A DNA stretch of 64,000 bases, taken from Mesoterricola sediminis. GTDB taxonomy: Bacteria > Acidobacteriota > Holophagae > Holophagales > Holophagaceae. Positions within the stretch are counted from its first letter, which is position 1, and the number at the start of each line of letters is the position of its first letter. Of the stretch, positions 18,218 through 39,799 are shown in pieces. The stretch is from NCBI RefSeq assembly GCF_030295425.1, contig NZ_AP027081.1, positions 3,455,001 through 3,519,000 on the forward strand. The letters are read 5' to 3'. The notes under the pieces are model-generated. The model was not told the DNA's origin. It worked only from the letters and a program-made list of their open reading frames with translations, and did no database searches. The position numbers and the translations under genes were made by a program.

Positions 18218-18243
18218 CGCCCTCACCGCAGGAGAGGAACACC

Positions 18244-18765: not shown

Positions 18766-18806
18766 TCCCCTTCAGGGCGGGAGGTGCCTCCTCGCCTTCA
18801 GCCCGG

Positions 18807-18842
18807 TCCCCCCAGGACGGTTCTCCCTGGGGGGATTTTTTT
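18807..18842 (+). terminator. Rho-independent terminator
   Basis: A perfect 10-bp stem, TCCCCCCAGG with CCTGGGGGGA, 9-base loop, followed by seven T bases. It ends the rightward operon of the tape-measure and small structural-like genes. Confidence 0.95.
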
Positions 18843-18865
18843 ACCCTGGAGCAAGAGGGAAGCGG

Positions 18866-19102: not shown

Positions 19103-19133
19103 CCTGGCGCTGTCTGCCCTGCCAAGGAAGGGA

Positions 19134-19406
19134 TCATTCGCGGCTTTTGGCTAGCCAATACCCTGCGGGATCCTCAATCCATCGCAGCACTTCCGAGAGG
19201 CGGAACCAGCGCCCAGTCCGCTGGCCTGTGCCCTTACCCGTTCCTGGTTTCGTGATGAATGGCATGGGATGTTGCGGCCGGTCCATCCAGTTGTACAGGG
19301 TCCTCCTGGACGGGGGGCGCGGGCTTCCATCATCGTTTGTCGGAAGCACCTCCGAGAGGGCGATCTGCAGCTGCTTTAACGTAAGGAATTGCTCAGGCAT
19401 GGCCAT
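19134..19406 (-). CDS. Small HTH protein near attR
   Basis: A 90-residue protein on the minus strand, started at the ATG at 19,406 (M-A-M-P-E-Q-F-L-T-L-K-Q-L). It contains L-K-Q-L-Q-I-A-L-S-E-V-L, then R-R-T-L-Y-N-W-M and the tail G-R-W-F-R-L-S-E-V-L-R-W-I, an arrangement of small DNA-binding proteins related to excisionases and phage-type regulators. It is the last gene of the element and converges with the preceding HTH gene. Its location by attR suits a recombination directionality factor. Confidence 0.65.
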   Translation of the reverse strand: MAMPEQFLTLKQLQIALSEVLPTNDDGSPRPPSRRTLYNWMDRPQHPMPFITKPGTGKGTGQRTGRWFRLSEVLRWIEDPAGYWLAKSRE

Positions 19407-19468
19407 AGGTCTCTCTGGGAGCACACTACCTCATGCGCCTCATCTCGACTCTGTTCGTTCGTCGAGAA

Positions 19469-19488
19469 TGTAGGACACCTGTAGGATG
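19469..19488 (+). repeat. 11-bp-spaced repeats by attR, candidate integrase arm sites
   Basis: TGTAGGACA and TGTAGGATG, 11 bases apart, matching the tandem CTGTAGGATGG pair at 3,425-3,446 on the other end of the element. The second copy shares ten bases with the left-hand repeats. Confidence 0.5.
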
Positions 19489-19522: not shown

Positions 19523-19613
<91 letters not shown>

Positions 19614-23395: not shown

Positions 23396-24370
23396 TCAGT
23401 TGCCCACCGGGCCCTGGCCCGGGGTGGTCGGCCCGCCGGGGCGGAGCTCGGGGTAGCGGGGCAGGACGGCCGGCTTGGCCTTGCGGTCCACGCTGAACAG
23501 GCCCCAGTGCCCCTCGGTGCCCTTGCCCTTCCAGGGCTCGTCGAAGGCCTCGAAGAAGAAGGTGGTCACGCCCTTGGCCTTGGCCCAGGCGTTCATCTCC
23601 CGGAAGTAGCGGTCCTGCTTGGCCTCGCTGCCGGCGCCGGGGACGTGCTGCGGATTCGAATCCGTGAAGGTGGCCCAGCCGACTTCGCCGAAGACGATGG
23701 TGCTGCCGGGATGGGCCTTGCGGACGGCCTCGAACTTGTCGACGGTGGTCCCGAAGGCCTCGTCGATGTCCTGACGGCCCCACATGGGGTAGCTGTGGAG
23801 GGTGATGAAGTCCACTTCGGCGGCGAGCTTCGTGCCGGGCTTGACCCAGTAGAGGAAGTCGTCGGCCACGGTGACCCGGCAGGGGACGGCGGCCTTCACG
23901 CGCTTCACGAAACCGATGACGTCGGCCTCGGTGAGCTTGTGGTCGGACCAGTCCACGAGGGCCTCGTTGCCGACGCTGACGGCGACGACGACGTCGGGGT
24001 AGGCTTTGGCGAGGCGGATGCCCTCGGCGACCTGGCGCTCGTTCTCCTCGGCCTTGCCGGGCTTGCCGCTCAGCCACATGCCCAACATCACCCGGAGGCC
24101 CAGCTTGTGGGCGCGGATCTGGGCGAGGACGTCGGCGGCGTGGCGGTCGGAGCCGTAGAGGCGGATGAGCTTCCACTCCCGGTCCAGGATCCGCAGGTCC
24201 TCCAGCACCTGGGCGGGGCTGGGGTAGAGCTGCTTGTCGGGGTCCTGGCCCTCGCGGTAGCCGGAGTAGCACACGGCGGGGCCCCACCAGGCCTGGCGGG
24301 CCAGATCGGGGGCGGCCTGGGCGCAGAGCGGGGCCGCGAGGAGGAGGATCAGGGGTCGGGGTATGCGCAT
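23396..24370 (-). CDS. GH17 beta-1,3-glucanase/glucanosyltransferase, exported
   Basis: A 324-residue enzyme with an N-terminal signal peptide (L-I-L-L-L-A-A-P-L-C-A-Q-A). The TIM barrel shows the GH17 landmarks: I-R-L-Y-G-S-D early, the acid/base E136 in V-S-V-G-N-E-A-L and the nucleophile E229 in V-F-G-E-V-G-W-A-T. GH17 enzymes act on beta-1,3-glucans as endo-hydrolases or transferases. Export makes it likely to work in the periplasm on imported oligosaccharides. It lies between the symporter (7-base gap) and the phosphorylase (8-base gap), so all three are co-transcribed. Confidence 0.92.
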   Translation of the reverse strand: MRIPRPLILLLAAPLCAQAAPDLARQAWWGPAVCYSGYREGQDPDKQLYPSPAQVLEDLRILDREWKLIRLYGSDRHAADVLAQIRAHKLGLRVMLGMWLSGKPGKAEENERQVAEGIRLAKAYPDVVVAVSVGNEALVDWSDHKLTEADVIGFVKRVKAAVPCRVTVADDFLYWVKPGTKLAAEVDFITLHSYPMWGRQDIDEAFGTTVDKFEAVRKAHPGSTIVFGEVGWATFTDSNPQHVPGAGSEAKQDRYFREMNAWAKAKGVTTFFFEAFDEPWKGKGTEGHWGLFSVDRKAKPAVLPRYPELRPGGPTTPGQGPVGN

Positions 24371-24377: not shown

Positions 24378-25835
24378 TCAGGCTTGGGACTTGCGGTCCT
24401 TGAGGTCCTGCTCGATCCGGACCATCATGGCGTCGTCCAGGGGGTAGAACTTCATCAGGAGGGCCGCCAGGATCAGGAGCAGGCCCGGGAAGATGCTCAT
24501 GGAGAGGCGGATGCCGGTCAGGGACCGGGCGGTCTGCTCCACGTTGGCCACGTAGCCGAACCAGGACAGGATCAGGCCGGTGACCCAGGCGCCGACGGCC
24601 AGGCCGATCTTGGTGCCGAAGATGGCGGACGCGAAGACGAGGCCGGTGTTGCGGCGGCCCCCGCGCCATTCGGCGTCGTCGGCGGTGTCGGCGAACATGG
24701 CCCAGAGCAGGGGCGAGTTGAAGCCGATGATGAAGCTGGAGAGGATCTGCAGGCCGAAGATCAGGGGGAGGCTGTCGGGGCCCGCGGGCCAGAAGCCGAG
24801 GATGACGACCCCGCCGCCGCCGATGGCGGCCATGAAGAGGGCCTTCTTGTCGAAGCGGCGGGCCACGGGCGGGGCCAGGGTCACCGCGGCCAGGAAGGCC
24901 AGGGCGTTGCTCACGAGGAAGGGGCCGAGGAGGTCGGTGCGGTGGAGGTAGTACTTGAAGTAGTAGGCGGAGACGGAGCCCTTGAGGACGAAGGAGGTGA
25001 TCACCACCACGCAGGCGGCGATCATCACGACGAAGGCCCGGCTGCCCAGGAGGTCCTTGAAGTCCCGCCGGAGATCGGCCTCCTGGTCCGCGGGCGGGGC
25101 GACCCGCTCCCGGGTGGTCAGGAAGCACAGGGCGAAGAGGACGACGGCCACGGCGCCGTAGAGCACCAGGGTGAGCTGCCAGCCCTTGGCCAGGTCGGAG
25201 GGGAGGGCGAGGAATTCCTTGGACAGGAACCAGCGGACCCAGGCGCCGGGGTGGGCGAGGAAGGCGTGCTGGGCCCGCAGGGCGGGCGCCAGGCCGAACC
25301 ACTGGGCCAGGCTGGGGGTGCAGTACTGCACGATCACCGCCACGGAGAACGCGCCCACGAACCGGTACGAGGCCAGGGAGGTGCGCTCCTTGCTGTTGGA
25401 GGTCATGACCCCCAGCAGGGCGCTGTAGGGGATGTTGACGACCGTGTAGAGGATCATCAGGAGGCAGTAGGTGACGTAGGCGTAAACCACCTTGCCGCCG
25501 GGGGCCAGGTTGGGCGTGGTGAAGGTCAGGACGCCGGCGGCGGCCAGGGGCAGGCCGAACCAGACCAGGTAGGGGCGGAAGTGCCCCCACCGGGTCCGGG
25601 TGCGGTCCGCGAGGGTCCCCATGACGGGATCGGCGACGGCGTCCACGACCCGGGTCACGAGCATCATCGTCCCGACGGTGCCGGCGGCGATGCCGAACAC
25701 GTCGGTGTAGAAGAAGATGATGAAGAACTCGAAGGTCTTCCAGTAGAAGTTGGAAGCCGCGTCTCCCAGGGCGTACCCGGCCTTCTCCCGGAAGGAGAGG
25801 AGGCCGGTGTCTTCGTGCTGCGCAGTCTCGGTCAC
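24378..25835 (-). CDS. GPH-family sugar:cation symporter (MelB-like)
   Basis: A 485-residue inner-membrane transporter with 12 hydrophobic segments. The signature D-A-V-A-D-P-V-M-G-T-L-A-D-R-T followed by R-W-G-H-F-R-P-Y is that of the glycoside-pentoside-hexuronide symporters. N- and C-terminal ends are polar and cytoplasmic. In this operon it probably moves beta-glucan oligosaccharides from the periplasm to the cytoplasmic phosphorylase. It starts at an ATG 13 bases from the stop of the upstream outer-membrane protein gene. Confidence 0.92.
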   Translation of the reverse strand: MTETAQHEDTGLLSFREKAGYALGDAASNFYWKTFEFFIIFFYTDVFGIAAGTVGTMMLVTRVVDAVADPVMGTLADRTRTRWGHFRPYLVWFGLPLAAAGVLTFTTPNLAPGGKVVYAYVTYCLLMILYTVVNIPYSALLGVMTSNSKERTSLASYRFVGAFSVAVIVQYCTPSLAQWFGLAPALRAQHAFLAHPGAWVRWFLSKEFLALPSDLAKGWQLTLVLYGAVAVVLFALCFLTTRERVAPPADQEADLRRDFKDLLGSRAFVVMIAACVVVITSFVLKGSVSAYYFKYYLHRTDLLGPFLVSNALAFLAAVTLAPPVARRFDKKALFMAAIGGGGVVILGFWPAGPDSLPLIFGLQILSSFIIGFNSPLLWAMFADTADDAEWRGGRRNTGLVFASAIFGTKIGLAVGAWVTGLILSWFGYVANVEQTARSLTGIRLSMSIFPGLLLILAALLMKFYPLDDAMMVRIEQDLKDRKSQA

Positions 25836-25848: not shown

Positions 25849-26439
25849 TCAGAACGTGTAGCGGGCGCCGAGCTGGATCCAGCCGGGGTTGATGGCGCCC
25901 TGGCGGATCAGGGTGTCGTTGCGCTGGCGGCCGGCGAGCTCCGTGACCTGGAGGATGGCCTCGTAGCTCAGGTGGGGGTTCTGGACGTACTCCAGGCCCA
26001 GGCGGACGCCGCCCTTGAGTCCCTTGCAGTCGTGGAAGGGGAAGTGGTGCTCGGCGTCGAAGATGCTCGGGCTCTCGTCGCCGCTGAACTTGGCCGTGTA
26101 GCTGTTGACGCTGAGGCCGAAGATGCCGCGAAGCCTGGGCGAGGGGGTCTCCAGGAGGAGGTCGCCGGTGAGCTGGACGAGGGTGAGGGAGGTCTTGAGG
26201 CCGTTGCGCTCCTTGCCGGGCATGGTGGCCGCGGCCAGGGAGACCCGGGCGGGGACGCCGGACTTGAGGAGCTGGGTCTCCCAGCCCACGTTGACGAGGA
26301 AGCCGGTGGTGGCGTTGACGGCCTTCTTGTAGCTGTCGAGGCCCAGGATGACGCCCCCGCCCACGGAGAGGCCCGTGGGTTGGGCGGCGGCCAGCGGTAG
26401 CGCCAGGAGGCCCGTCAGGACGGTGCGGATGAGTTTCAT
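25849..26439 (-). CDS. Small outer-membrane beta-barrel protein
   Basis: A 196-residue exported protein (signal peptide through about residue 19, ending A-A-A-Q). The remainder alternates polar and hydrophobic residues in strands such as L-S-V-G-G-G-V-I-L-G-L and ends I-Q-L-G-A-R-Y-T-F, with the terminal Phe expected of barrel proteins recognised by BAM. There is no enzymatic motif. It follows the TonB receptor in the operon by nine bases. A porin-like or accessory role in oligosaccharide passage is an inference from context. Confidence 0.8.
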   Translation of the reverse strand: MKLIRTVLTGLLALPLAAAQPTGLSVGGGVILGLDSYKKAVNATTGFLVNVGWETQLLKSGVPARVSLAAATMPGKERNGLKTSLTLVQLTGDLLLETPSPRLRGIFGLSVNSYTAKFSGDESPSIFDAEHHFPFHDCKGLKGGVRLGLEYVQNPHLSYEAILQVTELAGRQRNDTLIRQGAINPGWIQLGARYTF

Positions 26440-26448: not shown

Positions 26449-29400
26449 CTAGAACTTGAGGCCGATGCTGAAGTCGCTGACCTTCCGTCCGCCGTAGCCC
26501 TGGTTGTAGTCGCCGTACTTGGCGCCGGCGTCGCCGGGGGTCTGGCCATAGAAGCGGTTGCCGTAGTAGAGGGCCATGGGGCTGCCGGCGGCCACGTTGT
26601 TGGTGGTGGTCGGCTGGTCACCCGTGAAGTAGCCGTACACGTTGGTCATCACGAAGTGGTTGAAGAGGTTGTCGATGGACACGTAGCCGATGAGGCGGAC
26701 CTTGCCGAGGCCCAGGGGGATGTCCCACTGGATCTTGGCGCCGATCTGGTAGTAGTCCACGCCGGTCTTGAAGGAGCCCATGTCCCCGTAGTAGGTGGGG
26801 AAGTAGGTCTGCCAGTTCCCGGTGCGCTGGTCGACGTCGATGACGCGCTCGCCGTTGATGGTGCCGGGGAGCTGCAGGGCGGAGAAGCCCGGGAGGGTGC
26901 GGTAGTCGGTCCAGCCCTGGGCCTGGATGACGCCGCCGGTCCAGGTGTCGGCCTTCAGGGAGAAGGAGACGTTGCCGGCGCCCACGGGGTGGGTGTAGGT
27001 CAGGAACAGGTGGGCGATCTGGTTGCGGCTCAGGAGGCCGTGGCCGACGGCGCGGGCCTGCTGCTCGGGGGTGAGGAGCTTCTCGCGCAGGCTCTTGTAG
27101 TTGTAGTAGTCCAGATCGTTGGTGCCGGTGGACTGGTCGATGGTGTACGACCCGATCATGCTCCAGCGGGCGCTGAGCTGCTTCTGGAAGGCGATCTCGA
27201 TGCCGGTGTAGATGCGGTCGAACTCGGAGTTGAGCCACGAGGTCTTCTGCTTCCACATGCGGAGGGGATCGTTGGGGTCGGGGCTGACCATGTGCACCAT
27301 GGCGTCCATGCCGTAGTCGTGGATGGAGCTGACGATGCTGTCCTTGTAGATGCGGCGGATGCCGTTGATCTTGAAGTAGCCGGTCTCGTAGTTGCGCTGG
27401 TAGCCGACGCTGAACTCATAGGCGAAGGGGGCGCGGAGGCCCTTGGCGACGTAGGTCTGCCGGGCGTCGAGCATGTCGTAGGCCGGGCCGTAGTTCTTGG
27501 GGTCGATGAGGGTGTTGTAGTCCACGAAGCGGACGCCGTACATCGACTGGCCGGTGTAGGTGTAGCCGTTGTAGGTGCCCACGGGGGCGTCGCCGTAGGC
27601 GGCGGCGGTGTCGAAGCCGGGCTGGCTCACGCCGAGGTTGCCGCCGTTCCAGAGGTGGACGGTGCGGACTTCCCAGGCGTTGCCGCGGAAGTTGTTGGCG
27701 ATGGCGTCGGAGTAGGCGGAGGCCAGCTTGGCGGCGGAGGCGGACCAGATCTCGCGGTTCTTGCCGTCGGGGTTGAACTTCACCATCAGGCGGGGCTCGA
27801 AGATGTTCATGTCGTCGAGGCGGTTGCCGCCCTGGTCCTGCATCACCAGCTTGTTGTAGCGGAAGCCGGCCATGATGTTCAGGTTGGGGCTGACGGTCCA
27901 GTTGTCGTTCAGGTAGACCGACGTGGTGCTGTTCTTGGAATCGCCCGGGTTGTCGTAGAACTTCTCCATGTGGGCGCTGGGGCCGCGGATGGCCTCCCAG
28001 TGGAGGAAGGGGGCCTGGGTGCCGAGGCCGTTGGGCATGTTGCCCCAGGCGGACCAGCCGTTGGCCACCGGGTTCTCGCCGGGGCCGATCTGGAGGATCT
28101 CGGTGGGGTCGGTGCCGGGGTCGCCGCGGTGGAAGACGGGGTAGAGGTACTTGCCGGTGGCCTCGTCGAGGTACCAGCCGCCGGTGAAGACGCCGCGGTT
28201 CCCGTACTTGGACCGGCCGAAGTTGTAGAGGGTCTGCACCCGCTCGGCGCCCATGTCGATGTCGTGGTTGCCGTGCCAGTCCTGGAGGGTCTTGACGTTC
28301 ACCGACCAGGTCCGGTTGCCCTTCTTCAGGGGGCTGACGTCGTAGGTGGACATGTTGGTGAGCAGCGGGCCGTAGTCGTAGCTGTCGGGGCTGCCCAGCC
28401 AGGAGTGGGCGCCGCTCTCGCCGCGCAGGACCATCCCGGGGTCGGGGCTGGCGAAATAGCCGGAGACCGAGACGCTGGGGTTGGGGTTCTTGACGTCGTT
28501 GAAGGTGTTGGCCGCGTAGGTGGTGCGGGCCTCGATGGACCAGTTGGGGCTCAGCATGCCGTTCCAGCCCAGGGTCCAGGCCTTGGTCTCGGTCACCATG
28601 TCGCCGACGCCGCGGAGGATGTTGCCCTCCCAGGGATCCGTGTTGCGCTGGCCCTGGACGCCGCCCTGGGTGGTCTTCTCGGTGAGGAAGGTGGCGCTCA
28701 CGGAGTGGTTGGAGCTCACCATGCCGGTCAGCTTGCCTTCGAACTTCTGGAACTTGATGTTGGAGCTGAGCTTGGTGCCGGCATCCTCGGCGCTCATCCC
28801 GTAGTTGCCGCCGGGACCTGTGTTGATGACGGAGTCGACGTTGGGGTTCAGGCCGTAGGTGGCCATGGGCCGGAGCATGGTCTGGACCTGGCTCCAGGGG
28901 ATGTTGGGCTGGCCGGCCTTGACGCCGACGACGGTGTAGCCCAGGAGGCCGGTGGTGGCCTGGCTGGGGGTCAGGCGGGTGCCGAGGGTGAACCACAGGC
29001 GGTCCTTGATGATGGGGCCGCTGAAGGTGAAGTCGGTGGTGTGGGTCAGGTCCTCGCGCAGGAGGTTGGAGTTGTTGTTGGCGTTGGTGAGGGGGTTGTC
29101 GGCGCCCATGGAGGCCCGGGACATGTTGGACCGGACGGTGCCCTCGAAGGTGTTGGAGCCGCTCTTGGTGACGATGTTCACCTGGCCGCCGCTCACCATG
29201 CCGTTGCGGGCGTTGAGGCCCGAGGTCACCACCTGGACGTCCTCGATGGAGTCGGGCAGCGGGGCGTAGAGGGACGAGTAGGTGCCCGTGTCGTCCTTCA
29301 CGTTGATGCCGTCGATGCTGTAGAGGATCTGGTTGGTGTCGGAGCCGCGGACGCGGGCGTCCTTGCCGTAGCCGGCGATGCCGGGGGCGATGTTGGTGAT

Positions 29401-29874
29401 GGCGTCGAAGCCCTGCATGGAGACGGGCATCTTGAGCAGCTGCTCGGAGGAGTAGTTCACCGAGACCTTGTCGCTGGTCTTGGCCTCGGCCGCGGCGGCG
29501 GAGGCCACGACCTCGACGGTCGCGGAGGCCTGCTGGACGGCCTTCAGGGTGAACGGGAGGGACTGGTTGGAGCCGACGCCGACGCGCACGTTCTTGGCGG
29601 TGCGGCCGAGCATCCCGGGCGCGCTGACCCGGATGGTGTAGTTGCCCACCGGGAGGAGCAGGGCGTGGTACTCGCCCTTCTCGTCCGTGGTGAAGACCTT
29701 GGTCTGGAAGAGCGCGGGGCTCTCCAGGGACACCCGGGCGCCCTTGATGGGCTTGCCGGCCTCGTCGGTCACGAGGCCGCTCAGGGCCCCGCTGGTGGTC
29801 TGGGCCACCAGGGTCGCCCCGGCGGCGAGCATGGCCGCGATGGTGGAGCGGAACATCACATTTCGCATGGTCAT
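26449..29874 (-). CDS. TonB-dependent receptor with carboxypeptidase-regulatory-like N-domain
   Basis: A 1,141-residue outer-membrane receptor of the acidobacterial Oar-like type. A signal peptide (to about residue 25) is followed by a carboxypeptidase-regulatory-like Ig domain (about 28-110: G-A-L-S-G-L-V-T-D-E-A-G-K-P-I-K-G-A-R-V), a plug domain (about 130-250, with G-S-D-T-N-Q-I-L-Y-S-I-D-G-I-N-V) and a large barrel ending in D-F-S-I-G-L-K-F. No SusD-like partner is encoded in the locus. It most likely takes up beta-glucan fragments. Start at the ATG at 29,874 with GGAGAC upstream; a second ATG lies two codons on. Confidence 0.93.
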   Translation of the reverse strand: MTMRNVMFRSTIAAMLAAGATLVAQTTSGALSGLVTDEAGKPIKGARVSLESPALFQTKVFTTDEKGEYHALLLPVGNYTIRVSAPGMLGRTAKNVRVGVGSNQSLPFTLKAVQQASATVEVVASAAAAEAKTSDKVSVNYSSEQLLKMPVSMQGFDAITNIAPGIAGYGKDARVRGSDTNQILYSIDGINVKDDTGTYSSLYAPLPDSIEDVQVVTSGLNARNGMVSGGQVNIVTKSGSNTFEGTVRSNMSRASMGADNPLTNANNNSNLLREDLTHTTDFTFSGPIIKDRLWFTLGTRLTPSQATTGLLGYTVVGVKAGQPNIPWSQVQTMLRPMATYGLNPNVDSVINTGPGGNYGMSAEDAGTKLSSNIKFQKFEGKLTGMVSSNHSVSATFLTEKTTQGGVQGQRNTDPWEGNILRGVGDMVTETKAWTLGWNGMLSPNWSIEARTTYAANTFNDVKNPNPSVSVSGYFASPDPGMVLRGESGAHSWLGSPDSYDYGPLLTNMSTYDVSPLKKGNRTWSVNVKTLQDWHGNHDIDMGAERVQTLYNFGRSKYGNRGVFTGGWYLDEATGKYLYPVFHRGDPGTDPTEILQIGPGENPVANGWSAWGNMPNGLGTQAPFLHWEAIRGPSAHMEKFYDNPGDSKNSTTSVYLNDNWTVSPNLNIMAGFRYNKLVMQDQGGNRLDDMNIFEPRLMVKFNPDGKNREIWSASAAKLASAYSDAIANNFRGNAWEVRTVHLWNGGNLGVSQPGFDTAAAYGDAPVGTYNGYTYTGQSMYGVRFVDYNTLIDPKNYGPAYDMLDARQTYVAKGLRAPFAYEFSVGYQRNYETGYFKINGIRRIYKDSIVSSIHDYGMDAMVHMVSPDPNDPLRMWKQKTSWLNSEFDRIYTGIEIAFQKQLSARWSMIGSYTIDQSTGTNDLDYYNYKSLREKLLTPEQQARAVGHGLLSRNQIAHLFLTYTHPVGAGNVSFSLKADTWTGGVIQAQGWTDYRTLPGFSALQLPGTINGERVIDVDQRTGNWQTYFPTYYGDMGSFKTGVDYYQIGAKIQWDIPLGLGKVRLIGYVSIDNLFNHFVMTNVYGYFTGDQPTTTNNVAAGSPMALYYGNRFYGQTPGDAGAKYGDYNQGYGGRKVSDFSIGLKF

Positions 29875-29903: not shown

Positions 29904-30668
29904 CTAGAAGTGGAACGCGTAGGCGATTTCGGCGTGGGGCACCGCGCGGTTGCGGGTGACCAGGCCGTCCAGGGGCCAGGTGGCGTCCTGGGAGGAACGC
30001 CGGCCGGGGGCGCCCGCGTCATAGGCGGAGGCGGTTCCCACATAGTGGTGGTATTCCATGGCCTGGTAGGCGAGGAGGACGACGTTGAACTCGAGGCTGG
30101 AGTCCTTGTCGATCCGCCAGATGACGCCGGCGTAGGGGCTCGGCGTGTACTTGGCCTTCTGGGGGGTGCCCAGGTAGAAGTCGCGCCAGGCCTTGTTGCC
30201 GGAGGCCACGTCCCAGGGGGCGCTCTGGGCGTCGCCCACGTACTGGTGCTTGAAGCTGCCGCCGAACTGCAGGCCGGCCTGCCAGCGCCAGGTGGGGTTG
30301 ATGGCCCGGCTGAAGGAGGCGCGGAGGGTGAGGCCGGAGAGCTGGTTGCGCTTGGATTCCACGGACTTGGCCGGGTTCATGGGCAGCAGCCCGGCATTCA
30401 GCGAGGAATCGTCGGGGGTGGTGAAGTAGTCGTCGCCGGTCTTGTACATGTAGCCCACTTCCAGGGCGACGGTGCCGGGGCCCACGCCGTAGCCGACGTT
30501 GAAGCCGAGACCGGTGTAGGTGGCGCGCAGGTGGTCCTTCTGGCTTCCGTAGGCCATGCGGAACTTGAAGGCCTTGGTGAAGCCCGTCTCCTGGGCGCCC
30601 AGGGGCGCCAGGGTGCCGCACAGGCACATGGCGAGGCCCCAGCGGACCAGGTTGGTTGCTTCGATCAT
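29904..30668 (-). CDS. Outer-membrane beta-barrel protein
   Basis: A 254-residue exported protein. The ATG at 30,668 is preferred over an upstream TTG because GGAGG sits just before it. The signal peptide is residues 1-26 (ends P-L-G-A-Q). Strand patterns with aromatic belts (V-G-Y-M-Y-K-T-G-D-D-Y-F) run through to the C-terminal A-Y-A-F-H-F. It resembles medium-size porin-like proteins of unknown substrate. It lies between the glycan-binding lipoprotein and the TonB receptor and probably belongs to the same operon. Confidence 0.8.
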   Translation of the reverse strand: MIEATNLVRWGLAMCLCGTLAPLGAQETGFTKAFKFRMAYGSQKDHLRATYTGLGFNVGYGVGPGTVALEVGYMYKTGDDYFTTPDDSSLNAGLLPMNPAKSVESKRNQLSGLTLRASFSRAINPTWRWQAGLQFGGSFKHQYVGDAQSAPWDVASGNKAWRDFYLGTPQKAKYTPSPYAGVIWRIDKDSSLEFNVVLLAYQAMEYHHYVGTASAYDAGAPGRRSSQDATWPLDGLVTRNRAVPHAEIAYAFHF

Positions 30669-30762
30669 GACATCCTCCAATGGGGAAAGGTCGAGGGGTG
30701 GGGTCGGACGTCAGGGGTCCGGCGGGCCTGGCCGTGGGGCCGGCCCGCCGGAACCGTCCAGG

Positions 30763-33700
30763 TCAGGGGACGAAGGTCAGGTCGTCGAAGTAGAACGCGA
30801 CGCCGGTGCCCGCGTTCCCGAAGTCGGGGAAGAGGGACAGCTTGTCGTAGGTCTTGGCGGCGTCGAAGAGGCCGGTGAAATCGAAGGTCAGGGTCTCCCA
30901 GGCGTTGGCCGTGGTGGTGGCGACCTTCTTCTCGCAGGACACGGTGTTGTTGCCCTGGTCCTCGACCTTGAGGAGGATCTGGGTGCCGGCGGCGGGGCTG
31001 TAGACGCGGACGGTGAACTTGTTGTTCGCGCCGCTGCCGAAGGGGATCCGGCCGATGGAGAAGTTGGCCCCGGTGGCCACGGTGGCCCCGGCCCAGGTCT
31101 GGGCGCCGCTGGCCTTGAAGATGCGGAGGGCCTTGTTGGTGGCGACGACGGGATCCGCGGCGACGGTGGCGTCCTCGGCGCCGCCGAAGCCGGCCAGGGT
31201 GTAGGCGACGAGGAAGTTGTCGAAGGTGACCGGGCCGTCGAAGGCGTCGAAGGTGACGTCGTCGAAGTAGTAGGAGGCGCCGGTGCCGGGGTTGCCGAAG
31301 TCGAAGAAGATGGAGGCCTTGTTGTAGACCGCGTTGGCGTTGAGGGCGGCGGTGCCGCTGCTCGGGTTGGCGAAGTCGAAGACCAGGGTCTCCCAGGCGT
31401 TGGCCGCGGTGGTGGTGGCGTCGGTCTCGCAGGAGATCGTGCCGTCGGCGGCGTTCTCGACCTTCAGCTTGACCTTGAGGCCGGCGGCCGGGGAGTAGGC
31501 GCGCACCAGCATGCGGGTGGAGCCGTTGCCCAGGGGGATGCGGCCCAGGGCGAGGTTGGCGGCGCCGGTGCCGAGGGTGACGCCGGCCCAGGTCTGGGCG
31601 CCGGCGGCCTTGACGACCTTGCCGACGTAGTTGGCGGAGTTGGCCGGGTCGGCGGCGATGCTGGAGCCTTCGGCGCCGCCGAAGCCGGTCAGGCCGTAGG
31701 CGATGGCGGGATCGTCGAAGGTGACGGTGGTGAAGTGGTCGAAGGCCACGTCATCGAAGTAGTAGGTCTTGTCGGCGGCCATGGCGGTTCCGCCGGCGCC
31801 GAAGTTGAAGTTGAAGAAGATGGAGGCCTTGTCGTAGGTCTTGGCCAGGTCCAGGGCGGCGGTGCCGCTCACGGGGCTGGCGAAGTCGAAGACCAGGGTC
31901 TCCCAGGCGTTGGCGACGGTCGTGTTGACCTGGGCCTCGCAGGTGACGCTGCTGTTGGTGTGGTCCTCGACCTTGAGGCGCACGGGGGTTCCGGCGTCGG
32001 GGGAGTAGACCCGGACGTTGATGCGGGTGTGGGTGGCGTCGAAGGGGATGGCGTGCTTGAAGCCGAGGGTCCCGTCGGCGGACAGGGTGGTGCCGCCCCA
32101 GAACTGGGCGGTGGTGGGCTTGACGACCTTGACGACCTTGTTGGACGCGTTGCCGGGGTCGGCGGCGAAGGAAGAGGCGACGCCGCCGAAGTCGGTGAGG
32201 CCGTAGGAGACCGTCGCCGCGTCGAAGGTGACGATGGGCAGGTCCATCTGGCGCATCACGATGCGGGTGTCGTAGTCCTGCGAGGCGCTGACGGCCGCGA
32301 GGCTGGCGTTGCCGGCCAGGTCGGAGAAGGCGCCGGCGGGGACGGTGACGGTGATGGTGCCCGCGGTGGTCGGGGGCGGGACGACGTCCAGGGTGTAGAG
32401 GGTGTCGCTCACCTTGGTGAGGGTGCCGGGGGTCCCGCCGGTGACGGTGATGGAGCTGGCGGTGAAGCTGGTGCCGACGCTCTCGCTGAAGGTGAACTTG
32501 AAGGTGACGGTGCCGTTGGCCGTGGCGGCCGCGATGTTGTCGGTGATGGCCAGGGTCGGCGGGGTGTTGTCGATGAAGGGGCTGTTGTGGAAGTAGACGT
32601 TGTCTACGTAGACGGTGCCGGCGCCGTAGGGCGTGGCGCCCACGAAGAGCAGCTGGGACAGGTGCTTGCGGCTGGCCAGGCTGCCGAAGTTGGCCAGGGG
32701 GATGTCCAGGGACACCCACTGCTTCTGGGCGTTGAGGGCCGGGGTCGTGGTGGCGTCCAGGTCGACCTCGCTCTCGGAGTCGTCGCCGCCGCCGTAGACG
32801 GTGTTGGCGCCGAAGTCGACGAGCTTGATGCCGAACTTGGTGATGTCGGGGGTCCAGACGTCGACGTGGAGGTAGGTCATGTTGGTGGCGTCGACGGCGT
32901 TGCCCGCCGCGAAGAACTCGACGCCCACGTACTTCAGGTTGGCGTACTTCTTGACGTCGTCGCCGCCGATGGTGAGCGCGGTGACGTTGGGGCCGGCGCC
33001 GTCGTTGCTCCAGCTGGTGCCCCAGGTGTCCACGGGGATGTTGGTGTAGGCCTTGGACAGGAGGGAGATGACCTTGGCGGGGTCAACGGTCGGGCGGGCC
33101 GGGGCGGTCGTCGGGACCACCGGGGTGATGACGGTGACGGTGGAGGACCCGGTGACGTTGATGCCGGCCAGGGTGGCGGTGATGTCGGTGGTGCCCAGGG
33201 TCAGGCCGGAGACGAGGCCGGTGCTGTCGACGGTGGCGACGGCGGGATTGCTGGAGGCCAGGTCGAACCAGCGCAGGCTGACGTTGCTGACGGTGACCGC
33301 GGGGGTGGCGTAGGTGAGGGTGCCGGTGAGGCCCAGGGACTTGGTCTTGGAGATCTCCACCTGCGCGGGGGCCCAGGCGATGGTGGCGGCCGTGGGGGCG
33401 GCAAGCTCGGCGGCGCTCAGCTTCTCGTAGCGGATGTCGTCCAGCCAGATGCTGTAGGCGCCCTCATCGGCGCCTTCGGCGAAGTGGAAGAGGCCGGTGG
33501 TGGAGGTGAGCTTGGCCTTGTTGGGGATGGGGATGATCTGCTTGACCCAGGCGGTGGTGACCGGGATGTTGGCGACTTCGGCGGCCCAGTCGCTGTTGCT
33601 GCCGTCGTTGCCGAGGCCGGCGACGTTCAGGGTGGCGGCCTTGCTGGCCTTCACCCAGAAGGTGACGGCGTTGTAGAGGCTCAGGTTCTGGGCCGTGGCG

Positions 33701-34218
33701 GCCTTGAAGGCGCCGCCGGTGTAGCCGGTGGAGGGGACGTCGATGCGCAGGGAGGCGGTGCCGGCCTGGTGCTCGGCCGTGTCCACGGCCAGGGCGTTGC
33801 TGGAGCCGCCGAAGGGCACGAAGGTGACGTTCTTGGCGTAGGCGTCCGCGAAGACCGGGAAGTTGGTGGGGGCCACGTCCACGGTCGCGTCGGCGCTCTT
33901 GCCGCCCACGGTGGCCGAGACGGTGGCGGTGCCCGCGCCCACGCCGGAGACCAGGCCGCTGGCGGCGATGGTGGCGACGTTGGGGGCCCAGGCGGTGTAG
34001 GTGGCCTGGGTGGTGGCCGCCTCCGAGGTGCCGTCGCTGTAGTGGGCGGTGACGGTCAGCTGGGCCGTCTCGCCGGGGAACAGGGCGACGTGGGTGGGCG
34101 CCACGGAGACGAACGAGAGGGCACGCCCTCCCTTGGACGAGCTGCCGCAACCCAGCAGCCAGAACAGGGGCATCAAGGCCAGCAGCGCCAAGCTTGCCCG
34201 GAAGCGGGGGGTGGACAT
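30763..34218 (-). CDS. Multi-domain glycan-binding surface lipoprotein
   Basis: A 1,151-residue protein with a lipoprotein signal (lipobox L-L-G-C near residue 23) and AAAGGAG before the ATG at 34,218. In order: a BIG2-type Ig domain (about 35-115), a jelly-roll carbohydrate-binding-like domain (about 118-270), a second Ig domain (about 275-365), a further CBM-like domain (about 370-550), a bacterial Ig-like domain (about 555-655), and three similar jelly-roll repeats of about 165 residues at 661-830, 831-995 and 996-1151. Each repeat begins V-T-F-D, contains A-W-E-T-L-x-F-D-F and ends Y-Y/F-F-D-D-V/L-x-F. It is the first gene of the glucan-uptake operon and probably serves as the surface glucan-binding protein where other bacteria use SusD/E/F. 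Confidence 0.85.
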   Translation of the reverse strand: MSTPRFRASLALLALMPLFWLLGCGSSSKGGRALSFVSVAPTHVALFPGETAQLTVTAHYSDGTSEAATTQATYTAWAPNVATIAASGLVSGVGAGTATVSATVGGKSADATVDVAPTNFPVFADAYAKNVTFVPFGGSSNALAVDTAEHQAGTASLRIDVPSTGYTGGAFKAATAQNLSLYNAVTFWVKASKAATLNVAGLGNDGSNSDWAAEVANIPVTTAWVKQIIPIPNKAKLTSTTGLFHFAEGADEGAYSIWLDDIRYEKLSAAELAAPTAATIAWAPAQVEISKTKSLGLTGTLTYATPAVTVSNVSLRWFDLASSNPAVATVDSTGLVSGLTLGTTDITATLAGINVTGSSTVTVITPVVPTTAPARPTVDPAKVISLLSKAYTNIPVDTWGTSWSNDGAGPNVTALTIGGDDVKKYANLKYVGVEFFAAGNAVDATNMTYLHVDVWTPDITKFGIKLVDFGANTVYGGGDDSESEVDLDATTTPALNAQKQWVSLDIPLANFGSLASRKHLSQLLFVGATPYGAGTVYVDNVYFHNSPFIDNTPPTLAITDNIAAATANGTVTFKFTFSESVGTSFTASSITVTGGTPGTLTKVSDTLYTLDVVPPPTTAGTITVTVPAGAFSDLAGNASLAAVSASQDYDTRIVMRQMDLPIVTFDAATVSYGLTDFGGVASSFAADPGNASNKVVKVVKPTTAQFWGGTTLSADGTLGFKHAIPFDATHTRINVRVYSPDAGTPVRLKVEDHTNSSVTCEAQVNTTVANAWETLVFDFASPVSGTAALDLAKTYDKASIFFNFNFGAGGTAMAADKTYYFDDVAFDHFTTVTFDDPAIAYGLTGFGGAEGSSIAADPANSANYVGKVVKAAGAQTWAGVTLGTGAANLALGRIPLGNGSTRMLVRAYSPAAGLKVKLKVENAADGTISCETDATTTAANAWETLVFDFANPSSGTAALNANAVYNKASIFFDFGNPGTGASYYFDDVTFDAFDGPVTFDNFLVAYTLAGFGGAEDATVAADPVVATNKALRIFKASGAQTWAGATVATGANFSIGRIPFGSGANNKFTVRVYSPAAGTQILLKVEDQGNNTVSCEKKVATTTANAWETLTFDFTGLFDAAKTYDKLSLFPDFGNAGTGVAFYFDDLTFVP

Positions 34219-34488
34219 GAGGTCTCCTTTAGATAGAAGCATTGCAGGCTTTGCATAACGGGTCGGTCTGACCTGCGCGCGGAAGGAAGGACCCACGCGA
34301 GGGGACCGCCGGATGGACCAGGCTCAAAGAGGACTGAAGCAGGTTGAATCATGAAAAATGATAAGTAAATGGTCTTTTTTTATTTTTTCAGGTAAGCTTT
34401 GGGGACCGCCGCAAAGCCCAGATTCTTCACAAAATGGCCAAAAATGCCCCTCCTTGACTGTCTGGCTTAGACAAGAAAGGATCATCAC
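34219..34488. promoter_or_regulatory. Divergent control region of the glucan locus
   Basis: 270 bases between the lipoprotein operon and the regulator gene. A direct repeat TTGCA-GGCT-TTGCA (34,242-34,255) lies close to the lipoprotein start, and an inverted repeat GTCT-N5-AGAC (34,460-34,472) lies close to the regulator start. The stretch 34,345-34,400 is strongly AT-rich. These are candidate sites for the XylR-like regulator; exact promoters are not clear. Confidence 0.45.
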
Positions 34489-35667
34489 ATGCCCCGAATC
34501 CGCCATATCGCCCTCCTGGTCCCCGCCTCGGGCGGCTACTCCCGGGGCGTCTGCCGCGGGGTGGCCACCTTCGCCCTGGACCGGGACGATTGGCTCATCT
34601 TTCCCTATGAGCGGGCGGAGTTCACCAAGCTCCCGCCCTGGCTGAAAAAGGGCCACATCGACGGGATCATCGGCTTCATCTCCAACCCGGACCTGGGCCG
34701 GCAGATCACCTCCCTGGGCGTGCCCATCGTGGATGTGCAGGGGGAGGGCAACTGCCCGGACTTCCCCTGGATCGACACGGACGCCGAGGTGGTGGCCGGT
34801 CTGGCCGAGGACTTCTTCACCCAGGCCGGCTTCGCGCACTTCGCCTTCTGCGGCTATCCGGGGGTGTTCTTCTCGGACCGGCGGTCGGACGCCTTCACGG
34901 GCCTGGTGCGGGGCAAGGGCGTGGAACCCCACGTGTACGAGCCCCCGCCCCGGGTGACCACGACGATCCGCAACCAGTTCCGGGAAATGCGGGGCCTGGA
35001 GTACGAGCCGGCCTTGGCGGCCTGGCTGGCGCGCCTCCCCAAGCCCGTGGCCATCCTGGCCTGCAACGACACCCGGGGCCAGCAGATCATCACCGCCTGC
35101 CGGGACCTGGGGATCTCCATGCCGGCCGACGTGTCGGTCATGGGCGTGGACAACGACGAGATCCTCTGCCGCCTGTGCCGGCCGACCCTCACCAGCATCG
35201 CCCCGGACACGGAGGGCATCGGCATCCTGGCCGGCCGGCTCCTCAACGCCATCCTGGAGGGGGAGGCGGTGGAACCCCGCCTGTACAAGCAGCCGCCCCT
35301 GCGTGTGGTGGAGCGGGAATCCACGGATGTGACGACGGCCCAGAACCCCCTGGTGCTGGCGGCCTCCCGGGTGATCCGGGACCGGGCCTGCCGGGGGATC
35401 TCGGTGGAACAGGTGTGCGAGTTGGCGGGCTGCTCCCGCTCGACCCTGGACGGCCTGTTCAAGAAGCACCTGGGCCGCTCCATCGCCGGTGAAATGGTGC
35501 GGGTGCGCCTGGGCACGGCCATGCGCCTGCTCGAGAACACGACCCTGACCCTGGACGAGATCGCCACGGCCTGCGGCTTCCAGTCGGCCACCTACTTCTG
35601 CCGGTTCTTCAAGCGGGAGAGCGGCTCAACGCCCGCCCAGTACCGCAGCGCCCAGGCCCTCCGCTGA
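34489..35667 (+). CDS. XylR-like regulator (LacI-type sensor domain with AraC HTH)
   Basis: A 392-residue transcription factor. Residues 1-280 are a periplasmic-binding-protein fold as in LacI effectors (S-V-M-G-V-D-N-D-E-I-L-C and L-T-S-I-A-P-D-T). The last 100 residues are an AraC double HTH (S-V-E-Q-V-C-E-L-A-G-C-S-R-S-T-L, then L-D-E-I-A-T-A-C-G-F-Q-S-A-T-Y-F-C-R-F-F-K-R). The order sensor-then-AraC matches XylR of E. coli, an activator. It stands divergent to the uptake operon and upstream of the glycosidase genes, so it probably turns both on in response to a glucan-derived sugar. No N-terminal LacI HTH is present. Confidence 0.92.
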   Translation: MPRIRHIALLVPASGGYSRGVCRGVATFALDRDDWLIFPYERAEFTKLPPWLKKGHIDGIIGFISNPDLGRQITSLGVPIVDVQGEGNCPDFPWIDTDAEVVAGLAEDFFTQAGFAHFAFCGYPGVFFSDRRSDAFTGLVRGKGVEPHVYEPPPRVTTTIRNQFREMRGLEYEPALAAWLARLPKPVAILACNDTRGQQIITACRDLGISMPADVSVMGVDNDEILCRLCRPTLTSIAPDTEGIGILAGRLLNAILEGEAVEPRLYKQPPLRVVERESTDVTTAQNPLVLAASRVIRDRACRGISVEQVCELAGCSRSTLDGLFKKHLGRSIAGEMVRVRLGTAMRLLENTTLTLDEIATACGFQSATYFCRFFKRESGSTPAQYRSAQALR

Positions 35668-35785: not shown

Positions 35786-36631
35786 ATGAAAGCCGTCTTC
35801 GCTCTTCCCTTCGCCCTGTCGCTGGCCCTGGCCTGCGGCGGGGGGTCCACCTCCACCGGTGGGAATAACAACAACAACAATGGCACCGGCACCTGGGTCC
35901 TGAGCTGGAGCGACGAGTTCAACGGGGCCGACGGCAGCGCGCCCGACAGCTCCAAGTGGGCCTTCGACGTGGGCGGCAACGGCTGGGGCAACAACGAACT
36001 GGAGACGTACACCAGCCGGTCCACCAACGCCCAGATCACCGGCGGCAACCTGGTGATCACGGCCCAGGCCGAAACGTTCACGGGCACGGACGGCATCACC
36101 CGGTCCTACACCTCCGCCCGCCTCAAGACCCAGGGCCTGTTCTCCCAGGCCAACGGGCGCTTCGAGGCCCGCATCAAGGTCCCCACGGGCAAGGGCATCT
36201 GGCCGGCCTTCTGGATGCTGGGCACCGATCTGGCCAACAACCCCTGGCCCGCCTGCGGGGAAGTGGACATCGCCGAAGTGGTCGGCCAGCAGCCCTCCAC
36301 CGTGTGGGGCACCCTGCACGGCCCCGGGTACTCGGGCGGCAACGGCCTCTCCGCCAGCAAGACCCTGACCTCCGGGAAGCTCTCGGACGACTACCACGTC
36401 TACGCGGTGGAGTGGGAGAACACGACGATCCGCTTCTACCTGGACGACACCCTCTACGCGACCCGCACCTCGGCCGAGGTGCCCACGGGCGGGCTCTGGG
36501 TCTTCGATCACCCCTTCTTCCTCATCCTGAACGTGGCCGTGGGCGGCAACTGGCCCGGCAGCCCCGACGGGAGCACCACCTGGCCCCAGAAGATGTACGT
36601 GGACTACGTGCGGGTCTACCGCCGCTCCTAG
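35786..36631 (+). CDS. GH16 endo-beta-1,3-glucanase (laminarinase-like) lipoprotein
   Basis: A 281-residue enzyme with a lipoprotein signal peptide (lipobox L-A-L-A-C, Cys17) and a Ser/Gly/Asn linker that includes a run of six Asn. The GH16 jelly roll follows from about residue 36. The active-site motif E-V-D-I-A-E has nucleophile E159 and acid/base E164, the spacing of the laminarinase-type GH16. Further landmarks are G-R-F-E-A-R-I-K and W-P-A-F-W-M-L-G. As a surface or periplasmic lipoprotein it likely makes the first cuts in beta-1,3-glucan. It is followed ten bases later by the next glycosidase gene. Confidence 0.93.
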   Translation: MKAVFALPFALSLALACGGGSTSTGGNNNNNNGTGTWVLSWSDEFNGADGSAPDSSKWAFDVGGNGWGNNELETYTSRSTNAQITGGNLVITAQAETFTGTDGITRSYTSARLKTQGLFSQANGRFEARIKVPTGKGIWPAFWMLGTDLANNPWPACGEVDIAEVVGQQPSTVWGTLHGPGYSGGNGLSASKTLTSGKLSDDYHVYAVEWENTTIRFYLDDTLYATRTSAEVPTGGLWVFDHPFFLILNVAVGGNWPGSPDGSTTWPQKMYVDYVRVYRRS

Positions 36632-36641: not shown

Positions 36642-38234
36642 ATGAAGCGCTTCGTCCTTGGCCTGGCCCTGGCGGGTCAGTGCCTGGCCGGCGGCCTGGA
36701 AACCCGGGACGGCCGCTATCTCCTCGACGGCCATCCCTTCCTCCTGAACGCCCTGGGCTACGAGACCGGGGCCCGCCCGGGGGAGGCCCCCTACCAGAGC
36801 GCGGCCCGCGACCTGGGCCAGGTGGCGACGGACTTGGCGGTCATCAGGGCCGCGGGCTTCAACGGGATCCGGACCTGGTCCCAGCTGAGCGAGCCGGAGC
36901 TGAAGCTCGTCCAGGCCTCGGGGCTGAAGGCGGTCTACGGCATCTGGCTCAAGCCCGACGAGGACTTCGCCGACCCGGCCGTGGTGGCCCGGGACCTGGA
37001 CCTGGTGCGGCGCACCGTGGCCTGGACGCGGAAGTACGACTGCGTCGTCACCTACCTGGTCATGAACGAGCCCATGCCCGAGCACATCCGCAAGGTGGGC
37101 GCCCAGGCCACGAAGGACCTCTGGATGAAGGTCCAGGCCCTCATCCACGAACTGCACCCGGGGGTGCCCGTCACCATCTCCGGCAATTCGGCCATCACGG
37201 AGTGGGTGGACATGGGGATCTTCGACGTGCGGGCCCGGAACGCCTACGACTACCATGACAGCGCCAACTTCACCCACGGCTTCGCGGAGGCCCAGCGGAT
37301 GCTGGCGGGCGCCGACGGCAAGCCCGCCCTGCTCACGGAGTTCGGCCGGTCCGTCTCGGGCCGGGGCCAGGGCCTCTACGGGGGCAACACGCTGCGCCAG
37401 CAGGCCGATTCGGTGCTCCAGTCCTATCGGGACTTCCTGGACGCGGGCGGGGCCGGGCTCTGCCCCTTCTACTACGCCGACGGCTGGTGGAAGGCGGGCA
37501 ACCCCGCCGTGCACGACGACGAGGCCGAGGAGTGGTTCGGCTTCCTCGGGTTCGCCGACCTCAAGGACACCGTGGGCCGGCCGCGGCCCGTGTGGCACGC
37601 CCTGGCCCAGTACAACCAGGCCCTCGTGGCCTCGCCCCGGAACCACGCCTTCTACCTGAACGCGGTGCCCCTGGAGGCCCACTGCCTGCCCGGGGTCCGC
37701 AAGGTCCGGGTCCTCCACCGGGACCGGGTGCTCCTGGAGACGGCCCCCGACGCCCGGGGCCTGGCCCGGGGCGAGCTGCGCTTCCCCGGCGAGGGCCTCG
37801 CGGACCGGGAGCTGGTGGTGGAGGCCCTGGACGCCGCGGGCCGGGTGCTCAAGTGGGAATCCCTGGTCGTCCTCACCGGTCCCGAGCCGGTGGTGTGGCC
37901 TTCCCTGGAGCTCCGCACCGGCGTGGTGGACCTGACGGGCGCCGCCGAGGTGCCGGTGGAGGTCCGCCTGGGGGCGACGGGCCCCTTCAAGGTGGAGGGG
38001 GACCTGCGCTACGCCTTCTCCGCCCACAAGGGCTGGGAGCCCGGGGAGACCCGGAGCCGGCCGCTGGCGCCCGGCGGAACCCTCAAGGACACCTTCCGGG
38101 TCCCGGCGGACTGCCCCGTGGGGGCCGTCTACGCGGGCGTCGACGTGCGCTACGGCAAGTTCGTGAAGACCCTCACGGCCCGGCGCTTCCTCTACCCCGG
38201 CACCTGGGCGGACCCGCTGCGGGTGAAGGAATGA
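36642..38234 (+). CDS. GH5/GH2-like TIM-barrel glycosidase, exported
   Basis: A 530-residue protein with a signal peptide (ending C-L-A-G). The barrel opens with the GH2_C-like phrase Y-L-L-D-G-H-P-F-L-L-N-A-L-G-Y. Likely catalytic residues are E143 in V-M-N-E-P (acid/base) and E233 in L-L-T-E-F-G (nucleophile), as in clan GH-A. A C-terminal 190-residue beta-rich part (from about 340) is likely an Ig-like or CBM-like domain. The family within the clan cannot be fixed by eye; substrate is inferred to be a beta-glucan. The gene overlaps the next by four bases (ATGA). Confidence 0.82.
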   Translation: MKRFVLGLALAGQCLAGGLETRDGRYLLDGHPFLLNALGYETGARPGEAPYQSAARDLGQVATDLAVIRAAGFNGIRTWSQLSEPELKLVQASGLKAVYGIWLKPDEDFADPAVVARDLDLVRRTVAWTRKYDCVVTYLVMNEPMPEHIRKVGAQATKDLWMKVQALIHELHPGVPVTISGNSAITEWVDMGIFDVRARNAYDYHDSANFTHGFAEAQRMLAGADGKPALLTEFGRSVSGRGQGLYGGNTLRQQADSVLQSYRDFLDAGGAGLCPFYYADGWWKAGNPAVHDDEAEEWFGFLGFADLKDTVGRPRPVWHALAQYNQALVASPRNHAFYLNAVPLEAHCLPGVRKVRVLHRDRVLLETAPDARGLARGELRFPGEGLADRELVVEALDAAGRVLKWESLVVLTGPEPVVWPSLELRTGVVDLTGAAEVPVEVRLGATGPFKVEGDLRYAFSAHKGWEPGETRSRPLAPGGTLKDTFRVPADCPVGAVYAGVDVRYGKFVKTLTARRFLYPGTWADPLRVKE

Positions 38235-39799
38235 GGGCCCGGGCGGCGGTGTTCGGGCTCGCGGCCCTGGCCCTGGCGGGCCAGGCCCCCTTCGTCCAGA
38301 CCACGGCCGCCGGCGACCGCCTCCGGCCCCTGCCGGCGCCCCGGTTCCGCCGCGGCGCCCCGCCCCCGGGACCCGCCGTCGCCGTCCGCCTCGGGGAGCC
38401 CCGCCAGACGGTGGAGGGTTTCGGCGGCGCCCTGACCGAGGCCTCGGCCTGGGTCCTGGCCCAGCTCCCTCCCGCGCGGCGCCAGGAGGTGCTGGACCTG
38501 TGCTTCGGGCCCGGCGGGGCGGGTTTCACCCTGGCCCGGGTGCCCGTGGGGGCCTGCGATTTCAGCGTGGAGGGGCGCTGGTCGTACGACGACCACCCGG
38601 GGGACGAGGCCCTCGCGCACTTCTCCATCGAGCCCGACCGGCGCGGTTTCAAGGACGCCCGGGATCCGGCCTACGCCCTCCTGCCCCTGGTGAAGGACGC
38701 CCTGGCCCGGGAGCCCGGGCTGCGCCTCGTGGCGAGCCCGTGGACGGCCCCGGCCTGGATGAAGGACAACGGGGCCTGGTACGGGGAGGGCCGCGGCGGC
38801 GCCCTGCTGCCCCGGCACTACGACACCTTCGCGCGCTACATGGTGCGCTACCTCCAGGCCTACCGGGACGAGGGCGTCCCCATCTGGGCCGTGACCCCGG
38901 AGAACGAGCCCGGCGGCAACGGCGGCCAGTGGGAGAGCATGGAGTTCACGCCGGAGGCCCTCTCGGACTACATCGGCCTCCATCTGGGCCCCCGCCTGAA
39001 GGCGGCGGGCTTCGGTGGCGTCAGGATCATCCAGTACGACCACAACCGGGACGCCGCCGCGGTGCGGTTCACGGAGGCCGCCCTGAAGGGGCCCGCGGCG
39101 CCCTATGTGTGGGGCACCGGGGTGCACTGGTACGAGCGGACCCGGGACGCGGGCGCGGACGTCCTGGACCGGCTCCGGGCCCTCGCGCCCCAGTGGACGC
39201 TGCTCCACACCGAGGGCTGCGTCGACGCCCTCGCCGACGAGGTCAACGCGCCCGGGGGGAGGTTCCTGGGCTGGCGGAACGACGCCTGGTGGTGGACCGC
39301 CGGGGCCGCGGACTGGGGCCACCGCTGGGCCCCCGAGGCGGACCGGGCCGACCATCCCCTCTACGCCCCGGCCCTGCGCTACGCCCGGGACATGCTGACC
39401 GGGCTGAACCACGGCCTCGCCGGCTGGATCGACTGGAACATCGTCCTGGACCGCCGGGGCGGCCCCAACCACGTGGGCAACGTCTGCGGCGCGCCCGTGA
39501 TGGTGGACACGGCGGCGGGGGAGGTCTACGTCACGCCCCTCCACCCGGTGCTGGCCCACCTGAGCCGCTACTTCCGCCCCGGCGACCGCGTGCTCGCGGT
39601 GGACGCGGGGGGCGGGCTCCTCGCCGCCGCGGCCCGGGACGGCGCCCACCTGAAGGTGGTGATCCACAACCCCGGGGATGCGCCGGTGGCCTACGCCCTG
39701 CGGGCCGGCCGGGCCTGGGCGAGGGTGGCCATCCCGGGACGGGCGATCCAGTCCGTGCGGGTCCCGCTGCGGGGCCTGGATGGCCCGCGGAAGCGGTGA
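38231..39799 (+). CDS. GH30 glycosidase (beta-1,6-glucanase/glucosylceramidase-like), exported
   Basis: A 522-residue enzyme with a signal peptide (A-L-A-L-A-G-Q-A). The phrase T-V-E-G-F-G-G-A-L-T-E-A near residue 60 is a GH30 hallmark. The acid/base is E226 in V-T-P-E-N-E-P and the nucleophile E328 in L-L-H-T-E-G-C. The C-terminal part is the beta-sandwich typical of the family. GH30_3 enzymes hydrolyse beta-1,6-glucan, and laminarin carries beta-1,6 branches, so a debranching role fits the locus. Translationally coupled to the preceding gene. Confidence 0.9.
   Translation: MRARAAVFGLAALALAGQAPFVQTTAAGDRLRPLPAPRFRRGAPPPGPAVAVRLGEPRQTVEGFGGALTEASAWVLAQLPPARRQEVLDLCFGPGGAGFTLARVPVGACDFSVEGRWSYDDHPGDEALAHFSIEPDRRGFKDARDPAYALLPLVKDALAREPGLRLVASPWTAPAWMKDNGAWYGEGRGGALLPRHYDTFARYMVRYLQAYRDEGVPIWAVTPENEPGGNGGQWESMEFTPEALSDYIGLHLGPRLKAAGFGGVRIIQYDHNRDAAAVRFTEAALKGPAAPYVWGTGVHWYERTRDAGADVLDRLRALAPQWTLLHTEGCVDALADEVNAPGGRFLGWRNDAWWWTAGAADWGHRWAPEADRADHPLYAPALRYARDMLTGLNHGLAGWIDWNIVLDRRGGPNHVGNVCGAPVMVDTAAGEVYVTPLHPVLAHLSRYFRPGDRVLAVDAGGGLLAAAARDGAHLKVVIHNPGDAPVAYALRAGRAWARVAIPGRAIQSVRVPLRGLDGPRKR

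Follow-up and report, generated by a model that had tools for sequence, protein, structure and literature searches.

The locus considered here, part of a window of 64,000 nucleotides from the acidobacterium Mesoterricola sediminis (NZ_AP027081.1, positions 3,455,001–3,519,000), raises the question of what the three tandem repeats at the C-terminus of a large lipoprotein are, and which polymer they might hold for the uptake genes that follow. An earlier note, made from the nucleotide sequence, had read these repeats as unknown CBM-like modules that could define a new glucan-binding family.

The lipoprotein gene and its genomic setting

The gene lies at the positions proposed in the earlier note and is read on the minus strand, from an ATG at 34218 to a stop at 30763 (Table 1), with a GTG 78 bases upstream of the ATG as an alternative start; the plus-strand frame over the same stretch is a shadow frame. 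The product has a lipoprotein-type N-terminus, MSTPRFRASLALLALMPLFWLLGC, followed by an Ig domain (Big_2), CBM-like domain A, an Ig domain, CBM-like domain B, an Ig domain (Big_12) and three repeats of approximately 160 residues. The two other CBM-like and three Ig-like domains noticed at the outset were recovered, the former as predicted β-sandwich folds and the latter by a Pfam search of the whole protein, which returned Big_2 twice and Big_12 once. An NCBIfam search gave no match.

Table 1. Positions in the window of the lipoprotein gene, its predicted domains and the neighbouring genes.
Feature	Position	Strand	Basis or remark
Whole lipoprotein gene, 1151 aa	30763..34218	-	Open frame; GC3 0.97; full-length orthologues in G001, G004, G002
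Putative signal peptide with lipobox-like LLGC (LWLLGC), residues 1–24	34147..34218	-	Read from the sequence
Ig-like domain 1, Big_2, residues 36–112	33883..34113	-	Pfam PF02368, E 2e-13
CBM-like domain A, residues 115–270	33409..33876	-	Weak Pfam CBM_11 and Cip1-like matches below cut-off; model resembles CBM4 chains, Z about 12.5
Ig-like domain 2, residues 273–370	33109..33402	-	Second Pfam Big_2 stretch; inter-genus homology; fold model of low confidence
CBM-like domain B, residues 376–548	32575..33093	-	Model resembles CBM30 and CBM11, Z about 13; homologue in Emticicia GH16 protein; distant profile match to repeats
Ig-like domain 3, Big_12, residues 550–642	32293..32571	-	Pfam PF19078, E 5.9e-11
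Repeat R1, residues 663–827, type II relative of CBM X584	31738..32232	-	Identity, profile, tree
Repeat R2, residues 829–990	31249..31734	-	AlphaFold2 pLDDT 96.5; top PDB match 8QX6, Z 17.0
Repeat R3, residues 994–1149	30772..31239	-	Identity, BLASTP, tree
Operon gene 2, conserved 258-aa protein without Pfam match	29904..30680	-	Kept in locus of both genera
Operon gene 3, TonB-dependent outer-membrane transporter	26449..29874	-	CarboxypepD_reg, Plug, OMP_b-brl_4
Operon gene 4, small outer-membrane beta-barrel-like protein	25849..26439	-	Weak OMP_b-brl match below cut-off; conserved
Operon gene 5, GPH-type sugar symporter (MFS_2)	24378..25835	-	E 1.4e-95
Operon gene 6, GH17 glucanase	23396..24370	-	Pfam Glyco_hydro_17, above cut-off
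Operon gene 7, GH149-type beta-1,3-oligosaccharide phosphorylase, start inferred	19968..23387	-	1068 bits to 6HQ6 over 1113 residues
Intergenic region between divergent operons	34219..34488	.	No gene called; comparatively AT-rich
XylR-type regulator (sugar-sensing domain and AraC helix-turn-helix), divergent	34489..35667	+	Domain matches
GH16 lipoprotein, laminarinase-type	35786..36631	+	Sole GH16 in genome
GH2/GH5-like TIM-barrel protein	36642..38234	+	Weak Glyco_hydro_2_C match below cut-off
GH30 glucanase, start inferred	38231..39799	+	Pfam E 1.4e-58 in frame of ORF 37487–39799

The suggestion that the gene heads an uptake operon also held, as it is the first of seven co-directional genes with small gaps. 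Together with the divergent operon, which encodes the regulator, the GH16 lipoprotein, the GH2/GH5-like protein and the GH30 enzyme, the transporter, symporter, GH17 and GH149 genes make the setting a complete β-1,3-glucan system, and the presence of GH30 beside GH16 suggests that the substrate is a branched β-1,3/1,6-glucan, for example laminarin or the glucan of fungal walls. The repeats are confined to this one gene in the 4.5 Mb genome, with its single GH16 gene 1.6 kb away. A large Ig-rich lipoprotein might instead be a cell-surface adhesin or matrix component with no part in nutrient capture, and multidomain Ig/CBM proteins can be adhesins, but a place at the head of an operon containing a TonB-dependent transporter, a symporter and glucan enzymes, in an order conserved between genera, leaves this reading very little probability.

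No match to SusD (PF07980 or PF14322) was found in the whole genome, the control Bacteroides genome being matched by the same families, and the SusC/SusD pair of a canonical polysaccharide utilization locus was not found here. The transporter is flanked in both genera by two small conserved outer-membrane-like proteins (operon genes 2 and 4), which could serve as accessory components of an importer that works without SusD. The TIM-barrel protein likewise keeps its place between GH16 and GH30 in each genus, its sister-genus counterpart having no Pfam match, and possibly represents an unassigned glycosidase family. A phage-derived stretch at positions 3466–19473 (plus strand) encodes an integrase, a DnaB-like helicase, a tape-measure protein and a virion protein; two transposases break it up, and it lies near a tRNA-Ser gene at 19524–19613 and the end of the glucan operon.

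Relation of the repeats to the laminarin-binding module X584

The three tandem repeats, here termed R1–R3, share 51–55% pairwise identity, and BLASTP of repeat against repeat gave E values far beyond chance (6e-48 for R1/R2 and 4e-57 for R2/R3); the AWETL and F-D-D motifs singled out in the earlier note recur in every copy. Three further genomes of the genus (G001, G004 and G002) contain all three copies in unchanged order. Since each copy is nearer to its counterpart in these congeneric species (67–80% identity) than to the other copies beside it, the triplication predates the genus and has been retained. The closest named relative containing the whole protein is another Holophagaceae genome of the Acidobacteriota (L031).

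The apparent novelty of the repeats stems from single copies scoring below Pfam cut-offs: R2 alone matched no family at E 0.01 and R1 alone reached 13.6 bits, short of the required 23. The whole protein, for which the score sums the copies, passes CBM_35_2 and CBM_4_9 with 27.0 bits each (cut-offs of 23 and 25.9, respectively). A profile built from 63 repeats and compared with the PDB gave a single significant match, over the full length, to CBM X584 (PDB entry 8QX6, `Novel laminarin-binding CBM X584'), with an E value of 1.1e-19 and profile positions 3–161 aligned with residues 5–163 of the chain. An AlphaFold2 model of R2 (mean pLDDT 96.5) led to the same entry, which was ranked first by both Foldseek and VIA-align; in the latter, 147 residues were aligned with a Z score of 17.0 and an r.m.s.d. 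of 2.5, the runner-up having a Z score of 12.7. The matches ranked below 8QX6 include CBM families 4, 11, 15, 22, 28, 29 and 30, and weak or absent VIA-align rows were never counted against any family. Profile and model thus indicate that R1–R3 are CBM-type β-sandwiches clearly homologous to the laminarin-binding CBM, at about 24% identity. The description as CBM-like therefore stands, while the repeats are not unknown, being homologous to the solved X584 module and to hundreds of further modules, mostly from Bacteroidota.

The resemblance to X584, from a PKD domain-containing protein, extends to the fold, the full-length profile match and the tandem occurrence in glucan loci, but the repeats of the window form a sister clade. 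The first split in a tree of 85 modules, rooted at its midpoint and with 8QX6 on a long branch, separates 19 modules that include 8QX6 (type I) from 66 that include R1–R3 (type II), with support of 99/95. Profile scores agree, the type I profile giving 8QX6 80.8 bits and the type II profile 48.8 bits. Residues Pro30, Lys91, Glu93 and Trp114 and the C-terminal Asp pair are common to both types, whereas type II modules, R1–R3 among them, have inserted stretches, forming extra loops, near residues 59–64 and 127–131, and DP..N in place of NP..S. The comparison thus places R1–R3 beside X584 and outside its solved subfamily, in a new subfamily. The proposal of a new glucan-binding family has to be modified accordingly: as X584 homologues the repeats do not found a family, yet they belong to a separate sister clade that lies outside the Pfam models and for which neither a solved structure nor binding measurements were found.

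Type I and type II modules alternate within single chains of the sampled loci, in the order I-II-I in 11 proteins and II-II-I in another 11, many of them from Bacteroidota, and in one case looked at (L062) the modules follow a PKD domain. A bolder reading would make type II a separate, uncatalogued CBM family with a specificity other than that of X584, for instance for another chain conformation or for β-1,6 branch points; alternating arrays would then read two features of one glucan, and the fused lipoprotein would stand in for the missing SusD of the acidobacterial system in delivering substrate to the TonB transporter. This is conceivable but rather unlikely.

For domains A and B, a model of residues 115–549 was of medium quality (pLDDT mostly 70–90 in A and B and below 40 in the middle Ig domain), and its matches, given in Table 1, also included the Bacteroides SGBP-B structures 7KWB and 7KWC. 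Single-sequence PDB searches of A and B returned nothing useful, and no Pfam family was found for B, CBM_11 scoring weakly over the stretch of an annotated Emticicia GH16 protein of which a B homologue forms part. Profile–profile comparison relates B to the repeats (probability 91%, E 1e-6) and found no such kinship for A. The relationship of B is based on this result alone, as an iterated B profile drifted into the repeats and was dropped; matches of the A profile to antibody heavy chains, with E values of 0.02 or worse, were taken as chance. Domain B turns up again in a GH16 protein and in further lipoproteins of glucan loci, and may have a better claim than the repeats to a separate family.

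Distribution of the repeats and the split lipoproteins of a sister genus

A scan of 84,980 species genomes, biased towards the conserved motif that was searched, yielded 216 confirmed repeat stretches, mostly in Bacteroidota. In a sample of 297 genomes from the phylum the repeat occurs in five, every one from Holophagaceae. The family sample of 77 genomes includes 11 with the repeat, 14 with GH16 and eight with both, so that GH16 is present in 8/11 repeat-bearing genomes versus 6/66 others (Fisher p = 1.8e-5, kinship being ignored). Repeats are present and GH16 absent in G043, G033 and G060; in the first two a GH81 gene adjoins the repeats, and G033 also has GH17. Both GH81 and GH17 are families known for β-1,3-glucan.

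Eighty loci from named genomes were surveyed, spanning Bacteroidota, Ignavibacteriota, Chloroflexota, Myxococcota, Pseudomonadota, Verrucomicrobiota and Acidobacteriota. GH16 occurs in 46 of these mutually related loci, and at least one of GH16, GH17, GH30, GH81 and GH149 in 57. The other 23, many of them short contig pieces, lack the β-1,3-glucan enzymes sought, with GH3 present in some. The 63% matches of R1 in Oscillochloris and Kofleriaceae exceed its identity to R2, and R1 groups with them in the tree; horizontal transfer of the repeat between phyla is likely on these comparisons.

The repeats might instead bind some other polymer, such as an α-glucan or a mixed-linkage glucan, with their placement in a β-1,3-glucan locus reflecting broad specificity. 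Some Bacteroidota repeat proteins carry Por_Secre_tail, CBM48/AMPK-type and CBM26-like domains, and the fold matches include CBM11, which binds mixed-linkage glucan. Against this, the nearest solved relative of the repeats is a laminarin binder and the gene has GH16, GH17, GH30 and GH149 as its neighbouring enzymes; no α-glucan enzyme was found in the window locus, for which an α-glucan role was set aside on account of its enzymes. Binding of another polymer is accordingly considered improbable.

The sister genus provides a further comparison. In G047 and G039 the locus comprises the same genes, but two lipoproteins stand in opposite operons: one with the order Ig-A-Ig-B heads the transporter operon, and one with the order Big_12-repeat-B lies in the divergent enzyme operon. 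In the genus of the window a single gene combines the two and comes first in the transporter operon, the gene order of which is conserved between genera. The gene therefore probably arose by fusion of two lipoproteins predicted to bind glycans at the surface. Judged from these arrangements, fusion is a simpler explanation than fission, given that the sister genus has, besides the separate forms, others with two (G033) or five (G043) repeats.

The split arrangement also lends something to the idea that the three repeats are chiefly structural spacers or protein–protein adaptors, contacting for example the transporter, with sugar binding left to A and B: the lipoprotein that comes first in the transporter operon of the sister genus contains A and B and no repeats, and many Ig-like and CBM-fold modules act as spacers. 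Elsewhere, however, one polypeptide carries both the repeats and a GH16 catalytic domain, directly fused (in Oscillochloris, Litorilinea and a gammaproteobacterium; L032, L045 and L099), and the repeats alternate with X584-type modules. Their copy number, moreover, varies from one to nine among proteins, with five in G043 and nine in one Bacteroidales chain, which fits avidity better than a fixed contact and suggests that copy number may be tuned for it. The variation in copy number was noted at L112 (8018–11074) and L055 (7440–13433). A chiefly structural role is considered improbable.

A predicted multivalent glucan-binding protein

Taken together, the protein is very probably a lipid-anchored, multivalent surface glycan-binding protein for β-1,3-glucan, either laminarin-like or a fungal β-1,3/1,6-glucan, with type II repeats sister to X584 and a probable origin in the fusion of two lipoproteins. 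Surface exposure in Acidobacteriota is inferred by analogy with Bacteroidota. Anchored on the outer face of the outer membrane, the lipoprotein would hold β-1,3-glucan through several weak sites on its five Ig-spaced CBM-type β-sandwiches, and the neighbouring GH16 lipoprotein and GH30 would cut the held polymer. The TonB-dependent transporter would bring the pieces in, GH17 and the GH149 phosphorylase would convert them to shorter sugars and glucose 1-phosphate, and the GPH symporter would move sugars across the inner membrane.

The arrangement recalls Bacteroides SGBP-B (PDB entries 7KWB and 7KWC), a CBM-like surface protein whose gene adjoins those of a TonB transporter and glucanases. The Bacteroides loci, however, pair SGBP-B with SusD, which the genome of the window lacks, and the window protein combines five binding-type domains, of different module families, in one chain. 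CHU_1279 from Cytophaga hutchinsonii, an SGBP-B-like protein with two CBM-like domains encoded in an atypical PUL, is needed for growth on its polysaccharide (PMC12016534); it differs in its target, cellulose instead of β-1,3-glucan, in having two modules and in belonging to Bacteroidota (PMC12016534). The GH16_3 laminarinases of Maribacter carry additional domains that bind laminarin, and one of these is reported to be 29% identical to an SGBP-B with the same ligand (PMC11345257). In these marine Bacteroidota the binding domains are carried on the enzyme, whereas those of the window are on a separate lipoprotein.

These results assign a likely function to a widespread module that has no Pfam coverage and tie it to β-1,3-glucan use beyond Bacteroidota, describing a SusD-less glucan-uptake locus in Acidobacteriota. 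The alternation of sister modules and the pair of split and fused lipoproteins lend themselves to direct tests of how proteins that capture glycans multivalently are assembled.
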